64,000 nucleotides of DNA from Bacteroidales bacterium (GTDB lineage Bacteria; Bacteroidota; Bacteroidia; Bacteroidales; P3). This document shows positions 1-59,165 of this stretch, in pieces; positions within the stretch are counted from its first letter, which is position 1; each line of letters starts with the position of its first letter. The translations under genes and the position numbers were made by a program. The DNA is taken from assembly GCA_017480225.1 (NCBI GenBank), contig JAFVBB010000010.1:1-64000 (forward strand), given 5' to 3'. The notes under the pieces were generated by a model. The model was not told where the DNA came from. It saw nothing but the letters and a program-made list of their open reading frames with translations, and made no database searches.

Positions 1-398
1 AACTGTAGTCGTACTATTTTGTTAAAAATCAAAAACAAGGCCGTGTCGCAGCGCGTCACAACCGACGTGCAAATGTACGCAAAAAAATCCATATCTCGAC
101 AACCCCGGCTGAAATATTGCCGGGCACCCCTACCCCACCCCAAAAGGTCGCATTTGGCAACATTGGCATATCCTGCATAACACACTGATTGTCAAGATAC
201 TAAATAATTGACAAATAAACACCACTTAAGTCACTCATTTTCAGCATAAAGAATAGACCAACTCCTACTCATCTCCTACTCAACTACTACCCATCGCCTA
301 ATCATGCACTACATGAGTAGGCGATGACATGCTGTTGATAAGTATCAGACATAGCCATAACACTGCCACAGGGTGCGGCAGGCCTTGCCGAAGGGCAC
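1..398. other. gene-free stretch
   Basis: No open frame here has coding character. The stretch is AT-richer than its surroundings and contains repeat copy A at 241-326. A short GC hairpin (CCCGGC...GCCGGG near 105-125) lacks a T-run and is not called a terminator. Confidence 0.6.
241..326 (-). repeat. GAGTAGGAGTT-family dispersed repeat, copy A
   Basis: Read on the minus strand this element has an imperfect palindrome (arms CATCGCCTA / TAGGCGATG around a CATG-rich centre), then three tandem 11-bp units resembling GAGTAGGAGTT, then a conserved tail GGTCTATTC followed by ATGCTGAAA. The same arrangement occurs at 13803-13889 and 41055-41142. It lies downstream of the pseudouridine synthase gene in an otherwise gene-free stretch. 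A TGTTGATAA sequence lies just outside it at 333-341. Function unknown. Confidence 0.85.
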
Positions 399-6468: not shown

Positions 6469-7341
6469 CTATCGTTTGCGGAGGCTCAGTATCTCGCGCG
6501 CCTCGTCGCTGGTGGCCACCTCGCGGCCCAGCAGCCTGGCCATGCGCACCACCTTGTCTACCAGCTCACCGTTGCTCTTGGCCAGCACGCCGCGCTCCAG
6601 GTAGAGGTTGTCCTCGAAGCCCACGCGCACATTGCCGCCCATCACTATGGCCGGAGCCGCCAGCGTGAAGGCATTGCGGCCTATGCCGGTGGCCGTCCAC
6701 GTGCTGCCGGCGGGTATGTTCCTCACCATCCACACCAGGTTGTCGACCGTGGCCGAGGCGCAGCCCAGCACGCCGAGCACGAAGTTGAACTGCATGGGCA
6801 CCAGCGGCAGCGGGCTGCCATCGGGGCCGGCCACGCCGAAGGCGCTGGGCACCTGACCCTTGCGGGCCATGTGCACTATAGTCTCCAGGTGACCCATCTC
6901 GAAGCACTCGTATTCGGGCTTGATGCCCTTCTCAATCATGCGGCGGCCGAAGGCACGCATGGTGGGCATGGTGTTGTCGAAGATGTCGTCGCCGAAGTTG
7001 CATGTGCCGCAGTCGAGCGTGGCCATCTCTGGCACCGGCGTGGTGTTGGTGCTGTCCAGGCGCTCGTCGGGCGTCATGCCCACGGCGCCGCCAGTCGAGG
7101 GGATGAGGATGACGTCGGGGCACTCCTTGAGGATGGCCTCGGTGCACTCCTGGAAGCGCACGTGGCTCTGCGTCGGCGTGCCGTCGTCCTCGCGCACGTG
7201 CAGGTGCACAATGGCCGCGCCGGCATCGACCGCGCTCTTGGCCTCGCGCACTATCTCTTCCACGGTGTAGGGCACGTTGGGGTTCTGCTCCTTAGTTACC
7301 TCGGCGCCGCATATTGCGGCGGTGATTATCAGCTTTTCCAT
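6469..7341 (-). CDS. beta-keto acid cleavage enzyme (BKACE, DUF849 family)
   Basis: The 290-residue protein belongs to the family of 3-keto-5-aminohexanoate cleavage enzyme, which condenses acetyl-CoA with a beta-keto acid to yield acetoacetate and a new CoA ester. Visible family residues are Glu14, the zinc-binding pair in HLHVR (His46, His48) and the PSTGG loop (Ser82). ATG 7341 gives MEKLIITAAICGAE, matching the usual start; the upstream extension is spurious. No lysine-fermentation genes accompany it, so the beta-keto acid substrate is unknown. It lies 30 bp upstream of the deiminase gene on the same strand and could be co-transcribed with it. Confidence 0.88.
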   Translation of the reverse strand: MEKLIITAAICGAEVTKEQNPNVPYTVEEIVREAKSAVDAGAAIVHLHVREDDGTPTQSHVRFQECTEAILKECPDVILIPSTGGAVGMTPDERLDSTNTTPVPEMATLDCGTCNFGDDIFDNTMPTMRAFGRRMIEKGIKPEYECFEMGHLETIVHMARKGQVPSAFGVAGPDGSPLPLVPMQFNFVLGVLGCASATVDNLVWMVRNIPAGSTWTATGIGRNAFTLAAPAIVMGGNVRVGFEDNLYLERGVLAKSNGELVDKVVRMARLLGREVATSDEAREILSLRKR

Positions 7342-7494: not shown

Positions 7495-7597
7495 CCGTCT
7501 GTTCTTCGATTGTTCTCCGATTGTTCTTCGATTGTTCTTCGATATTAAATCGAAGAACAATCGAAGAACAATCGGAGAACAATCGAAGAACAGACGG
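7495..7597. repeat. 103-bp palindromic element, copy 1
   Basis: Two perfectly complementary 49-bp arms (7495-7543 and 7549-7597) enclose the 5-nt loop ATTAA. Each arm is CCGTCTG plus four 11-bp units of the type TTCTTCGATTG, one of them TTCTCCGATTG. It begins 23 bp after the hflX stop codon and precedes that gene's terminator. Confidence 0.97.
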
Positions 7598-7619: not shown

Positions 7620-8906
7620 TTAGAAAAGGAAGTTGTTGTAGGGGTAGCGCACCGCGTGTATGCGCGCCACCTCGTCGTAGAGCATCTGGCGCAGGGCCTC
7701 GATGTTGGTGCGGTGCGCCGCGCTGACGAAGACGCACTTGCCGCCTCGCGCCCGCCACGAGCGCTCAAGCATGGCCAACTGGTCAACCTCGCCCTCGGCG
7801 TCCCACTCGGCCTCCTCGGTCTCGTCGAGCTCCACAAGCTCGGCAGGGCGGTAGGCGTCGACCTTGTTGAAGACCATGATCACGGGCTTGTCGGCGGCGC
7901 CTATCTCGTCGAGCGTGCGCCCCACGGCGGCAATCTGGTCCTCGTAGGCGTCGTGCGACACGTCGACCACGTGCAGCAGCAGGTCGGCCTCGGTCACCTC
8001 GTCGAGGGTGCTCTTGAAGCTCTCCACCAGGTGTGTGGGCAGCTTGCGGATGAAGCCCACGGTGTCGGTGAGCAGGAACGGCAGGTTGCCCACCACCACC
8101 TTGCGCACCGTGGTGTCGAGGGTGGCGAAGAGCTTGTTCTCGGCCAGTACGTCGCTCTTCGACAGCAGGTTCATCAACGTCGACTTGCCCACGTTGGTGT
8201 AGCCCACCAGCGCCACACGCACCAGGCTCTCGCGGTTTTTGCGCTGCAGCGACTTCTGCTTGTCGATAGAGGCCAGCTGCTGCTTCAGCAGGCTGATTTT
8301 CTCCTTGATCAGTCGACGGTCGGTCTCGATCTGCGTCTCGCCCGGGCCGCGCATACCGATGCCGCCGCGCTGCCGCTCCAGGTGGGTCCACATGCGGGTG
8401 AGCCTCGGCAGCATGTACTGCAGCTGAGCCAGCTCGACCTGCGTCTTGGCGGTCGAGGTGCGGGCGCGCTTGGCGAAGATGTCGAGTATGAGGGTCGTGC
8501 GGTCGAGAATGCGGCAGCCGAGCTCGCGCTCGAGGTTGCGCAGCTGCGCTGGCGAGAGCTCGTCGTCCACCACCACGAAGTCGGCCTCCGTGGCCTGGCG
8601 GTACTCCTTTATCTCCTCCAGCTTGCCGCTGCCCACGTATGTGCGCGGGTCGGGCCTTTCAAGCCGCTGCACCACGCGCCTGGCCTCGACGCCGCCCGCC
8701 GTGGCCAGCAGGAAGGCCAGCTCGGCCAGGTACTCGCCGGTGCGCTCCATGCTCTGCCCCGCAGGGCACACGGCCACCAGTATGGCCTTCTCCGGCACAG
8801 CCTCGGTGCTGAAGGTGTTGCGTTCCTGGGGCGAAGGGCGGGCGGGGCTCTCCTCGCCCCGGCTGTTGCGGAACTTGCCCTGCTTGTTGGGGTTCCAGTT
8901 GCTCAT
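7620..8906 (-). CDS. hflX: GTPase HflX
   Basis: This 428-residue GTPase binds the 50S subunit and in other bacteria splits stalled or heat-damaged ribosomes. The HflX N-terminal domain (about 40-150) and the conserved helical linker with GGIGMRGPGETQIETDRR precede the G domain. That domain has G1 GYTNVGKS (235-242), G3 DTVGF and G4 NKVD. ATG 8906 overlaps the stop codon of the upstream exporter gene in an ATGA junction, implying translational coupling; the longer upstream frame is a shadow of that gene. It is last in the U32-membrane protein-ThrE-HflX run. Confidence 0.95.
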   Translation of the reverse strand: MSNWNPNKQGKFRNSRGEESPARPSPQERNTFSTEAVPEKAILVAVCPAGQSMERTGEYLAELAFLLATAGGVEARRVVQRLERPDPRTYVGSGKLEEIKEYRQATEADFVVVDDELSPAQLRNLERELGCRILDRTTLILDIFAKRARTSTAKTQVELAQLQYMLPRLTRMWTHLERQRGGIGMRGPGETQIETDRRLIKEKISLLKQQLASIDKQKSLQRKNRESLVRVALVGYTNVGKSTLMNLLSKSDVLAENKLFATLDTTVRKVVVGNLPFLLTDTVGFIRKLPTHLVESFKSTLDEVTEADLLLHVVDVSHDAYEDQIAAVGRTLDEIGAADKPVIMVFNKVDAYRPAELVELDETEEAEWDAEGEVDQLAMLERSWRARGGKCVFVSAAHRTNIEALRQMLYDEVARIHAVRYPYNNFLF

Positions 8907-13664: not shown

Positions 13665-14092
13665 GTCAAATCACTGTTTTGCGCAAACAACGCGCAACGG
13701 CAGCCTTTATTGTGCGCCGGGTGCCGATTTTCCGTCGTCGGCAGCAAGCCCGGCAGGTGCCGTGGCCGTATCAACAACCTCTCATAAACCTGTCATCGGC
13801 ATACCAACTACTACACAAGTAGTGGTTCATTAGGAGTTGGGTAGTAGATGAGTAGGAGTTGAGTAGGAGTTGGTCTATCCACAATGCTGTTTTTCAACCA
13901 ATTGACAACATACATTCTACCCCCGCCGCGCAAACACAACCAACAATCTGTATATCAGACACTTTACGCACATTTCCGGAAAAATCGGCGCGGAGGCTCG
14001 CCCTGCACGTGATGGCGGCGGCACCAGGCCTGGAAGGGCGGCCCGTGGCGGGTGGCTGTTGATAACTTGTTGGCATATCGAGGCGAAAAAAG
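13665..14092. other. divergent intergenic region
   Basis: No gene is visible. It contains repeat copy B (13803-13889) and a TGTTGATAA sequence at 14057-14065 that resembles a DnaA box with one mismatch. The arginine deiminase promoter follows. Confidence 0.6.
13803..13889 (+). repeat. GAGTAGGAGTT-family dispersed repeat, copy B
   Basis: Small palindromic region (ACTAC/GTAGT inside CCAACT...AGTTGG), then four 11-bp units (ATTAGGAGTT-like, GGGTAGTAGAT, GAGTAGGAGTT, GAGTAGGAGTT), then GGTCTATCC and ATGCTG. It has one tandem unit more than copies A and C. It lies between two divergent genes. Confidence 0.85.
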
Positions 14093-14186: not shown

Positions 14187-15440
14187 ATGACAAAAGAAAA
14201 TATCGCACCGTGCACCGTCGACGTGAGTTCCGAGACCGGACGCTTGCGCGCCGTGCTGCTCCACCGTCCCGGGGTCGAGATTGAGCGCATGACCCCGATC
14301 AACGCCGCCCACGCCCTGTACAGCGACATTCTGAACCGCCCGATAGTCGACACCGAATACCACTACTTCAGCGGCGTGCTGGAGCGGTGGACCGACGTGT
14401 ACTACGTGGAGGACATACTGGAGCGCCTGCTCGACGACGAGGGCACACGCCGCCACCTGGTGGAGGAGAGTTGCGACATGGACAACTGCGACGACGACCT
14501 GGCCGAGAGCCTCATGGCGCTGCCCTCGGCCGAGCTGGCACGCATACTGGTGGAAGGCTACGAGGACCCGGAGTGGGACGGCACCGACGACGACCGCTAC
14601 CTGCTCAAGCCGCTCTACAACCTCTTCTTCACCCGCGACGCGTCGAGCACCGTGTACAACCGCGTGCTGATCAACTCGATGAGTTTCGACGTGCGCGAGC
14701 GCGAGACGCTCATCTACGAGGCCATCTTCCGCCACTTCTTCCACGTGGACACGCTGAACGCCATGGCCTCAGACCGCGACGCCCGCACCGAGGGCGGCGA
14801 CGTGCAGACGGCCTCGCCCGACCTGCTCTGCATCGGTCAGGGCATACGCACCAACACCAAGGGCATCAAGTACCTGGCGCAGACATTCGCCCGCGAGCGC
14901 GAGCGCTTCAACATCTTGGTGCAGGAGCTGCCGCAGAAGCCCGAGAGCTTCATACACCTCGACATGGTGTTCACCTTCCTGGGGCGCCACCAGTGCATGG
15001 CTTTCGAGCCCATGCTCAAGAAAACCGGCCTCTTCGCTGGCAAGGACACGACGCTGATCAGCATCGAGGGCGGCAGGGTGAGCTACACCAAGTTCCCCAA
15101 CATCATCAAGGGTCTGGAGCACCTGGGCTGGGAGATGGAGCCCATAGTGGGCGGCGGGAGCGACCCCTGGGTGCAGCTGCGCGAGCAGTGGCACAGCGGG
15201 GCAAACTTCTTCGCCCTCGGCGACGGCAAGGTGATGGGCTACCGCCGCAACACCCACACCATCGACGCACTCGACCGCGCGGGCTTCGCCGTGCTCAACG
15301 CCGAGGACATCGTGGAGGGGCGTGTGGACATGAACGACTACGACAAGTTCGTGGCGGCCTTCCCGGGATGCGAGCTTCCACGCGCCGGTGGCGGCGCCCG
15401 CTGCATGACAATGCCCATCCTGCGCGACAGCGCGCAATAG
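14187..15440 (+). CDS. arcA: arginine deiminase
   Basis: The 417-residue cytosolic enzyme hydrolyses L-arginine to citrulline and ammonia. It has the expected motifs in order: FTRDAS (Asp of the guanidinium pocket), EGGDV, HLDMVFTFL (His/Asp), a GGGSDPWVQLREQWHSGANFF-like segment, and the C-terminal GGGARCMTMP with catalytic Cys406. ArcB and ArcC, which would complete the ATP-yielding pathway, are not in the window. The gene leads a run continuing into the GT117 gene 43 bp downstream. A second, secreted deiminase lies at 4.3-6.4 kb. Confidence 0.95.
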   Translation: MTKENIAPCTVDVSSETGRLRAVLLHRPGVEIERMTPINAAHALYSDILNRPIVDTEYHYFSGVLERWTDVYYVEDILERLLDDEGTRRHLVEESCDMDNCDDDLAESLMALPSAELARILVEGYEDPEWDGTDDDRYLLKPLYNLFFTRDASSTVYNRVLINSMSFDVRERETLIYEAIFRHFFHVDTLNAMASDRDARTEGGDVQTASPDLLCIGQGIRTNTKGIKYLAQTFARERERFNILVQELPQKPESFIHLDMVFTFLGRHQCMAFEPMLKKTGLFAGKDTTLISIEGGRVSYTKFPNIIKGLEHLGWEMEPIVGGGSDPWVQLREQWHSGANFFALGDGKVMGYRRNTHTIDALDRAGFAVLNAEDIVEGRVDMNDYDKFVAAFPGCELPRAGGGARCMTMPILRDSAQ

Positions 15441-21279: not shown

Positions 21280-21585
21280 CATATCTCGTGCCCACCCTCA
21301 TTCCGGTGTATGTGCGTAATCGGCATTGACATTGATTTACAATCACTTGCAGACACCAATAGCCACATCGCATTGAAAATCAAGCAGAAGAGGCATCAAG
21401 TCCGTATCAACACCGCCTGTTCTTCGATTGTTCTCCGATTGTTCTTCGATTGTTCTTCGATTTAATATCGAAGAACAATCGAAGAACAATCGGAGAACAA
21501 TCGAAGAACAGACGGCCTTGACATGGTGCTGAAATGCCCCGCCTACAATGCTACGGCGAGCCGTAGCAGGCTGAATGGCAAAAAG
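21280..21585. other. convergent intergenic region
   Basis: Between the terminators of pgk and the decarboxylase operon. It contains palindrome copy 2 (21413-21515) and an extra 8-bp hairpin (TGCTACGG/CCGTAGCA, 21549-21568). No gene is visible. Confidence 0.6.
21413..21515. repeat. 103-bp palindromic element, copy 2
   Basis: 49-bp arms 21413-21461 and 21467-21515, loop TTAAT. There is a single mismatch in the arms (CCGCCTG opposite CAGACGG). The loop is the reverse complement of the copy 1 loop. It lies between two terminators, so it should not be strongly transcribed from either side. Confidence 0.97.
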
Positions 21586-26201: not shown

Positions 26202-26608
26202 AGCGTATGTGTGTGTTGTTTTTTCATACAATCAGAAGGTGGCAGGCACACATCAAACCCGCGCCCAATGCTGCCAGCATCCGCGCAAAAAAGTCCGCTG
26301 TATGTGTCACCGCCTCTGTTCTGCACTTTGTTAAATTAGCATAAAACTGCTGTAATCAAGTTTTTGCGCCACGTATGCAGCGCTTTTCAAATTGCAAATA
26401 TACAAATTTTTCCCGACAACAGCACGCCGCAGCCTGTTTTTAACACAAAAAAGACCGCCCGCAGGCCACACTCCACCAGCCTCAATACAAACCCTGGGGC
26501 AAAACAAAGTTACCCCACCCAAGAATATTGGCATACAAGCAGTTGCAGCAAAACCAACCCATAATATACTGAAAACCAGCAAGACAAAGCGCTAAAACCA
26601 TATCAAGG
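26202..26608. other. intergenic region upstream of mmdA
   Basis: No gene is visible. It holds the mmdA leader (about 190 nt), a -7 box at 26395-26402 and AT-rich sequence up to palindrome copy 3. Confidence 0.6.
26395..26402 (-). promoter_or_regulatory. -7 box of the decarboxylase operon
   Basis: TATATTTG on the minus strand fits TAnnTTTG exactly. No -33 TTG lies at the usual 19-20 bp; the nearest is at 14 bp. Confidence 0.55.
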
Positions 26609-26711
26609 CCGTCTGTTCTTCGATTGTTCTCCGATTGTTCTTCGATTGTTCTTCGATTTGCAATCGGAGAACAATCGAAGAACAATCGGAGAACAATCGA
26701 AGAACAGACGG
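26609..26711. repeat. 103-bp palindromic element, copy 3
   Basis: 49-bp arms 26609-26657 and 26663-26711, loop TTGCA. One arm unit reads ATCGGAGAACA instead of ATCGAAGAACA, a G.U-compatible change in RNA. It lies beyond the tRNA-Val terminator and upstream of the mmdA promoter. Confidence 0.97.
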
Positions 26712-40930: not shown

Positions 40931-41290
40931 CACATTTTTTTTGATTTTGCGCCTATGAAATAAAAAAAGCGCCCATCCTTCAGCCCGCACAGCCGGTGGT
41001 TGGCAGCCGTCCAGGCTGCATAAAATACATGCCAAAACAATGCCATCTACTTGTCATCTCCTACATGTGTAGTACATGAGTAGGCGATGGGTAGGAGTTG
41101 AGTAGGAGATGAGTAGGAGTTGGTCTATCCTTTATGCTGAAACACAGTACTTTACATGCTTCCCACTACCCATATATCCAGACGGTTGATTTACAACAAG
41201 TTATCACAAAACACAAAATCCTGCCACCACGACGTCGGCGGCGGCTCCAGGAAGGCGGCGGCATGGGTCGGTGAAGGCTTCAAGATTTTT
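40931..41290. other. divergent intergenic region between dpp4 and thrS
   Basis: No gene is visible. It contains repeat copy C (41055-41142) and a TTATCACAA sequence (41201-41209) near it. The thrS promoter lies at the right end. Confidence 0.6.
41055..41142 (+). repeat. GAGTAGGAGTT-family dispersed repeat, copy C
   Basis: Palindromic region (CATCTCCTAC...GTAGGCGATG around ACATGTGTAGTACATG), then three 11-bp units GGGTAGGAGTT, GAGTAGGAGAT and GAGTAGGAGTT, then GGTCTATCC and TTTATGCTGAAA. It is the closest match to copy A in reverse orientation. Confidence 0.85.
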
Positions 41291-58818: not shown

Positions 58819-58921
58819 CCGTCTGTTCTTCGATTGTTCTCCGATTGTTCTTCGATTGTTCTTCGATTATAAATCGAAGAACAATCGAAGAACAATCGGA
58901 GAACAATCGAAGAACAGACGG
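58819..58921. repeat. 103-bp palindromic element, copy 4
   Basis: Perfect 49-bp arms 58819-58867 and 58873-58921 with loop TATAA. It follows the rnr stop by 14 bp and is convergent with the tRNA-Pro gene downstream. Confidence 0.97.
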
Positions 58922-59165
58922 TCTTGATATGGATCTGACACCTTGTTGATGCTGAGAATGAGTGACTTACAAGCACAACAGACACGAAGGAACCCCATTC
59001 GCAACTGAATATCAATGTTTTGCAACGCCATTTGCGGGGTGCAAATTCTGCAAAATGGACGAGTAATGCCTTTCTGGCAACAATGGCGTTGAATCCAAAA
59101 AATGACACAACGTCGGCAAAGAATGCATTGGAAGAATAAGTAAAGACAACTGATAAAAAAAATTG

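Follow-up and report, generated by a model that had tools for sequence, protein, structure and literature searches.

According to the available excerpts of its description, the BrickBuilt MITE of Porphyromonas gingivalis is built of 23-bp direct-repeat units and has IS5-type terminal repeats with ends of the GAGACCTTTGCA type; 19 elements are described, no host species other than P. gingivalis and P. gulae has been reported for it, and another P. gingivalis MITE has a different tandem unit (PMC4596501). REP sequences and BIMEs, as outlined in the excerpted text, are 20–40 bp long, lie mostly between unidirectional or convergent genes and carry unpaired GTAG or CGTC tags, the GTAG-tagged REPs being linked to RAYTs (PMC3733652). 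Inverted repeats can also be homogenized by template switching, in which one arm is copied onto the other across a short spacer; in the available part of the source, this is described for yeast genes, locus by locus (PMC8604942).

Four 103-bp palindromes, herein referred to as family F1, were found in the window, i.e., the whole 64-kb stretch of DNA analyzed here. Copy 1 (7495..7597, + strand) has perfect 49-bp arms and the loop ATTAA. It ends 22 bp from the stop codon of an hflX-like gene (7620-8906, - strand), with a BKACE gene (6469-7341, - strand) on the opposite side, and its orientation is uncertain because its leader is weak. Copy 2 (21413..21515, + strand; loop TTAAT) is flanked by the genes for PGK (+) and OAD beta (-); its leader (21373..21412, +) starts at TTGAAAATCAA, and its single arm mismatch sets an outer CCGCC against GACGG. 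Copy 3 (26609..26711, + strand; loop TTGCA) lies near tRNA-Val; its leader (26569..26608, +) starts at CTGAAAACCAG, and its single arm mismatch is a G-T pair on the + strand. Copy 4 (58819..58921, - strand; loop TATAA on the + strand) has perfect arms and is located past an RNB-domain gene, close to tRNA-Pro; its leader is weak, a possible one being the CTCATTCTCAG form at 58922..58961 (-). An earlier note on this DNA had placed all four palindromes at exactly these coordinates, and the 49-bp arms and 5-nt loops that it gave hold in register. The perfect pairing that it claimed applies to copies 1 and 4 and fails by one mismatch each in copies 2 and 3, and each arm consists of CCGTC plus four 11-bp units (5 + 44), not of CCGTCTG plus four units. 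With up to one mismatch, the 11-bp unit was found 33 times in the window, versus a mean of 0.67 and a maximum of 3 in 100 shuffles.

The window belongs to a 2.05-Mb assembly of 22 contigs, 97.6% complete (G000), and element statistics were collected from 1,174 of its 2,053 kb. The 15-mer ATCGAAGAACAATCG occurs 469 times genome-wide in G000, and its reversed control 0 times. In total, 87 F1 clusters were found in the sampled 1,174 kb, which bears out the proposal of a genome-wide family and shows that the copies of the window are not the only ones; extrapolation gives about 150 per genome, fewer than the hundreds that had been expected. Genes were called by a custom hexamer caller, and any overlap of the 87 clusters with a called gene is 20 bp at most. 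Most of the clusters (70) are 93 bp long (4 + 4 units), and all full-copy statistics below refer to these; lengths of 82, 104, 71, and 60 bp were found in 10, 3, 2, and 2 clusters, respectively. Contig stretch L095 was excluded as a 99.99% repeat of L081; here contig C19 duplicates part of C4 (L081:7086-19431 / L095; 99.99%), an assembly redundancy with a contig start inside a palindrome.

The 15-mer ATCGAAGAACAATCG was found in none of 60 other genomes (36 of the same genus) and not in a genome-contig collection, these collections possibly omitting G000 itself. Carriage by phages or plasmids was rejected, as no match was found in the IMG/VR, phage, or plasmid collections. Among the best eight named hflX matches listed, all come from uncultured bacterial assemblies, seven of them labeled Bacteroidales and several naming deer or yak rumen.

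No described family with this 11-bp unit was found in the open-licence PMC texts, in agreement with the earlier note. As far as the excerpts describe it, BrickBuilt resembles F1 in its Bacteroidales host, its intergenic location and its leader followed by a spacerless tandem array. F1 differs in its inverted 11-bp arrays, its approximately 150 copies, the absence of a recognized terminal repeat and the change of word from one species to the next; among the 87 sets of 60-bp flanks, none had the BrickBuilt end GAGACCTT or its complement. BrickBuilt is the nearest described element found, distinct from F1 in unit length, inversion, ends, and turnover. With REPs and BIMEs, to the extent of the excerpts, F1 has in common that they are high-copy extragenic palindromes, some of them species-specific. 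It differs in being 103 bp of repeated 11-mers often located in divergent regions and in the lack of a Y1 transposase: PF01797 had 0 matches in G000, and the control genomes were positive in 5 of 14 cases. F1 copies are near-perfect palindromes, not 20–40-bp ones with an unpaired GTAG or CGTC tag, and the CGTC of F1 sits within the paired outer stem. Thus, with neither a Y1 transposase nor a REP-like tagged palindrome, F1 is not a REP/RAYT system, and no known transposase-encoding REP or MITE family was recognized in it; it is filed as a dispersed intergenic repeat that is neither a REP nor a proven MITE. The template-switched repeats, as excerpted, share with F1 short spacers and an arm that can be copied onto the other arm; the F1 arm, however, is common to many loci, and spacer inversion, a sign of template switching, was seen in none of the 11 oriented F1 copies with zero or one arm mismatch.

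The F1 copies are oriented, a feature absent from the earlier note. Each copy begins with a leader; next come roughly two outer 11-bp units, which are degenerate, and four units that hardly vary, and beyond a 5-nt loop the units are inverted. The leader is loose, roughly CTGAAAACCAGCCTGAAAAGGCATCAAGTCC, contains CTGAAAACCAG and is followed by an outer 11-mer, TGTCAACACCG, and then by the array. The 44 bp of the near (leader-side) arm are identical in 63 of the 70 full copies, with a difference of 0.6% per site, beside 7.3% in the far arm, 33% in the outer units, 43% in the loop and 56% in the leader; copies were oriented here by leader plus near arm. When the leader alone was used for orientation, the near arm matched the consensus in 39 of 43 copies and the far arm in 6 of 43. 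Unit 2 has the TCC variant in 65 of 70 copies, although the other units have both variants. This fixed position, together with near-arm identity next to a diverged far arm, loop and leader, makes the near arm look copied as a block. Across copies, the leader is nearly uncoupled from the right arm (r = 0.11), and the coupling of the right arm with the right flank is r = 0.37. Built on 26 copies, a model that covers the leader and the outer units matched 57 places in the G000 sample at E < 1e-3, and the leader model without outer units matched 26, all beside arrays in both cases; a stand-alone leader motif was rejected, since no intergenic orphan below E = 0.3 was found in G000 or in the relative G072.

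What is kept in F1 is the leader-side arm and not perfect pairing, since only 18 of the 70 full-length copies have perfect arms. The idea of a preserved stem with a free loop therefore stands for stem identity and falls for pairing. The loop is TTAAT or ATTAA in 13 of the 25 copies with zero or one arm mismatch, versus 3 of the 45 others; the low-mismatch copies thus give the impression of a single subfamily that is spreading, not of many separate arm repairs. As a separate observation, the contig ends L084:1-400 and L090:121-519 are 90.5% alike and have one F1 copy each, with identical near arms, far arms differing in one unit and strongly different leaders.

These patterns suggest that a species-specific 11-letter word has been copied around each genome by something. 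The explanation that we favor, at a probability of roughly 0.5, is that F1 is a non-coding intergenic repeat dispersed at the DNA level and homogenized within each species by repeated copying of its leader-side arm. In this view, F1 resembles a non-autonomous element: transfer of the leader-side arm from locus to locus would recur (concerted evolution), and each species would arrive at an 11-bp word of its own. The arm may be transferred by recombination or by template switching where the arrays form hairpins. Several points count against this explanation: the leader, which should travel along in simple transposition, is close to random; copies with zero or one mismatch share a single loop type, which speaks against many arm repairs; and most unit-number changes (lengths 82 and 104) affect one arm only.

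Elements were compared with those in a 914-kb sample of G072, the best of 29 hflX loci of the genus by protein score (79.7% identity), others scoring higher by DNA. The two species have 323 reciprocal best hits with a median protein identity of 70%. Positional conservation was rejected: 158 gene pairs are adjacent in both genomes, an element occurs in seven of them, and in none is the same family found in both, one shared pair having F2 (see below) in G000 and F1 in G072. The six gaps with an element in one species only are 55–307 bp longer on the element side; one gap measures 23 bp in G000, and its G072 counterpart, which holds an element, 178 bp. From this gap comparison, elements come and go, the gains or losses being visible between flanks too diverged to place the element ends. 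In G000, gaps with elements were syntenic in 2 of 19 cases versus 21 of 35 element-free gaps of at least 100 bp (p = 0.0005); for G072, the values were 6 of 16 versus 25 of 45 (p = 0.25). The location of elements at synteny breaks is a lead only, as tandem gaps dominate the comparison set.

Such turnover also fits a plain MITE, a doubtful reading with some appeal, in which copies were moved recently by a transposase, the array served as its end-binding sites and identity reflects youth. The positions not shared with G072, the longer gaps on the element side, and the existence of loop and right-arm subfamilies are all in its favor. Recent movement agrees poorly, however, with per-site differences of 56% in the leader and 33% in the outer units next to a near arm at 0.6%; by eye, no terminal inverted repeat or target duplication was recognized beyond the arms, and the genome-wide profile searches, which covered Y1 and RVT_1, found no Y1 transposase in G000. 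A retroelement driver was rejected: RVT_1 was found once each in G000, G072, and G010 and not in G008 or G023, which also have arrays.

A sister family, F2, was found in G000 and was likewise missed by the earlier note, although three of its elements lie in the window. It is laid out like F1: a leader close to CTGTAAATCAGCATAAAGTATAGACCA precedes 11-bp units of the form CTCAACTCCTA, and the inverted units beyond the loop are degenerate. The window elements are located at 234..350 (+; leader and inverted array of the unit CTCAACTCCTA), 13785..13897 (-), and 41040..41147 (-), the latter two in divergent gene pairs and all with approximate ends. In total, 24 F2 clusters were found in 1,174 kb of G000 (21 in 786 kb), some copies being counted twice in the 43 rows of the listing. 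F2 favors divergent gene pairs, with 16 of 21 placed elements versus 5.7 expected by length; F1 has only a mild preference, with 33 of 84 placed copies versus 22.4 expected. Together the two families occupy 49 of the 87 divergent gaps of at least 100 bp in G000. In several F2 copies, for instance those of L031 and L097 and the one upstream of 41147 in the window, the F2 leader motif is preceded, at a distance of some tens of bp, by a GGGGGTAA stretch and by another motif resembling CTG-N5-CAG.

The placement of F2 is among the points that speak for helically phased sites of a host DNA-binding protein, nucleoid-associated or regulatory, with a specificity changing between species and with the CTG-N5-CAG leader as a second site a few turns away. 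All array families followed have units of 11 bp, and the leader is close to the 11-bp phase. A position-fixed variant and 44 bp of identity, however, exceed what binding would be expected to require, positions are not conserved between species, and F1 lies only mildly more often in divergent regions, so we regard phased binding sites as rather unlikely. F1 has no orientation bias with respect to GC skew (39 to 48, p = 0.39; other families p = 0.10, 1, and 1), by which a replication-oriented site was also rejected.

Families with other words, the third feature not noticed earlier, were found in the relatives, whose sequences were compared with G000 on both strands. In G072, the F1 array starts with the unit TATCAACACCG, as in G000, and continues with other inner units, TACATGCACCG, and F2 has another word, CTCATCTCTTA. 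The per-site difference of the G072 F1 copies grows outward from the leader (0.07, 0.12, 0.14, 0.23, 0.41, and 0.63), the underlying list of 62 rows including at least 3 coding look-alikes. Among 120 genomes of the genus, the F2 leader pattern was found in two (G000 and G072), and the F1 first-unit pattern was found 28 times in G000, 18 times in G072, once in G105, and in none of the other 117. At the G105 locus (L336, about 1440-1540), TATCAACACCG is followed by 11-mers of another word (ACTTGAGTCGG type) beside CTGACATTTTGTCAG, and a CTG...CAG motif is also present beside this other-word array. The word CGGACCATCC, matched 265 times in G010, was absent from the six other genomes searched, and TTCAACGATAC or TTCGACCATCG has 106 matches in G008, 55 in G023, and 0–3 in the other five. 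At the fetched array places, hairpins were found in G008, G023, G009, and G035 (arm scores 16 to 32) and none in G010. Exact self-match runs of at least 14 at lag 11 were found 123 times in intergenic G000 and 67 times in intergenic G072, with peaks at lags 11 and 22 in G000 and at lag 11 in G072; the small samples of 11 other relatives had 0–1 runs each, and 72 outside hflX loci had none. The caller for this analysis was trained on G000 only, and the 336 kb of 'intergenic' sequence from other Bacteroidota is largely coding.

Thus, intergenic arrays of 11-bp units, inverted or tandem, are a design common to several species of one genus; the word changes from species to species, and in each of the two species studied in depth its copies are nearly identical. 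Such a set of species offers a natural comparison for studying the homogenization of a short word at many loci of a bacterial chromosome. In several G023 arrays, one side has two copies of one word, while the interior and the other arm have another. These two-word arrays are cited for a process acting in trans, to which we give little credence: starting at the leader end, it would enter the single 11-bp word current at the time into the intergenic arrays. Leader-proximal units would then be up to date across more than 100 loci, distal units would retain older words, and the word would be replaced as species diverge.

The least probable of the readings considered, selection on RNA hairpins as terminators, 3'-end stabilizers or RNase III sites, draws on the folding energy of the stem as RNA (-83 to -88 kcal/mol, with z of about -19 to -22), on the end of copy 1 at 22 bp from a stop codon and on near-to-far strand arm mismatches of 71 G-U cells versus 19 A-C and 82 others, a lean for which its weight was slightly raised; against it stand the following: this lean is carried by few columns (9 G-U, 5 A-C, and 7 others), the GACATCA unit breaks two pairs in 30 of 70 full copies, the 33 of 84 placed copies in divergent pairs lie where neither gene could end, at least five T in the ten bases past the stem were found in 7 of 70, and the window copies had no Rfam match, only two tRNAs reaching gathering scores. 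RNA roles therefore look unlikely, the G-U lean leaving them some probability. A terminator role is unlikely as well, the terminator scan around copy 1 giving only another stem.

The preferred reading, a dispersed repeat homogenized by arm copying, also touches on the tolerance of long palindromes. The nuclease SbcCD cuts long hairpins, and its loss could make long palindromes tolerable. TIGR00619 (sbcD) had no match in G000, G072, G008, G010, or G023. A reference title in one partly available source is to the effect that SbcCD cuts long hairpins (PMC7999016). In the genus, sbcD was above the cut-off in 27 of 59 genomes, and SbcC was found at E < 1e-27 in the same 27 and in G065, G000 having only short SbcC matches (best 8e-8). 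Intergenic arrays of period 11, 22, or 33 above threshold occurred in 9 of 11 sbcD-negative genomes, including G000, versus 0 of 8 positive ones (Fisher p = 0.0007, ignoring relatedness); these 19 come from the 59 typed genomes, with smaller stretches for the positives. Without G000 and G072, there were 13 arrays in 234 kb of nine negatives versus 0 in 115 kb of positives. Around hflX, arrays were found in 2 of 12 sbcD-negative and 0 of 17 positive loci.

Several observations run against this link. The genome G077, which has both sbcD and SbcC, contains a 93-bp near-perfect palindrome (L350:10998-11090, arm score 36) whose arms hold two 11-bp repeats (GTTCTTATATC/T). Hairpins with an arm score of at least 24 number 89 in the G000 sample but only 1 in 914 kb of the sbcD-negative G072, and 0 in the stretches of G010, G008, and G023, also sbcD-negative. 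Two short 11-bp repeats just under the threshold, of one word in opposite orientation, were found in the sbcD-positive G016 (L113, 3640-3667 and 7283-7303). Finally, the sbcD labels change about twice on a 16-species hflX tree, for which 16 of 30 sequences were kept and G065 was labeled negative although SbcC is present. The link between SbcCD loss and palindromes is a lead only, given its confounding with phylogeny and the long palindrome of an sbcD-positive relative. SbcCD was demoted as a cause, chiefly by the G077 palindrome and further by the few G072 hairpins, the G016 repeats and the two label changes, and the probability of the arm-copying explanation was accordingly lowered from 0.55 to 0.5. 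The patchy distribution of SbcCD makes the genus a place where the limiting of long palindromes by this nuclease is testable, the first data being mixed.

Other arrays were also observed. In contig C1 of G000, a palindromic array of similar length with 9-bp TAGA-rich units (L040:14536-14645) adjoins an F1 copy (14657-14760). Another 11-bp word, GTCAATACTAG, forms a 4.4-copy array near hflX in G070 (L064, 1296-1343). A second period besides 11 is represented by many arrays of 7-bp units (such as AATTGAG and GAGTTGA) at the loci L105, L109, L111, L116, L118, and L120 of relatives from the genus.
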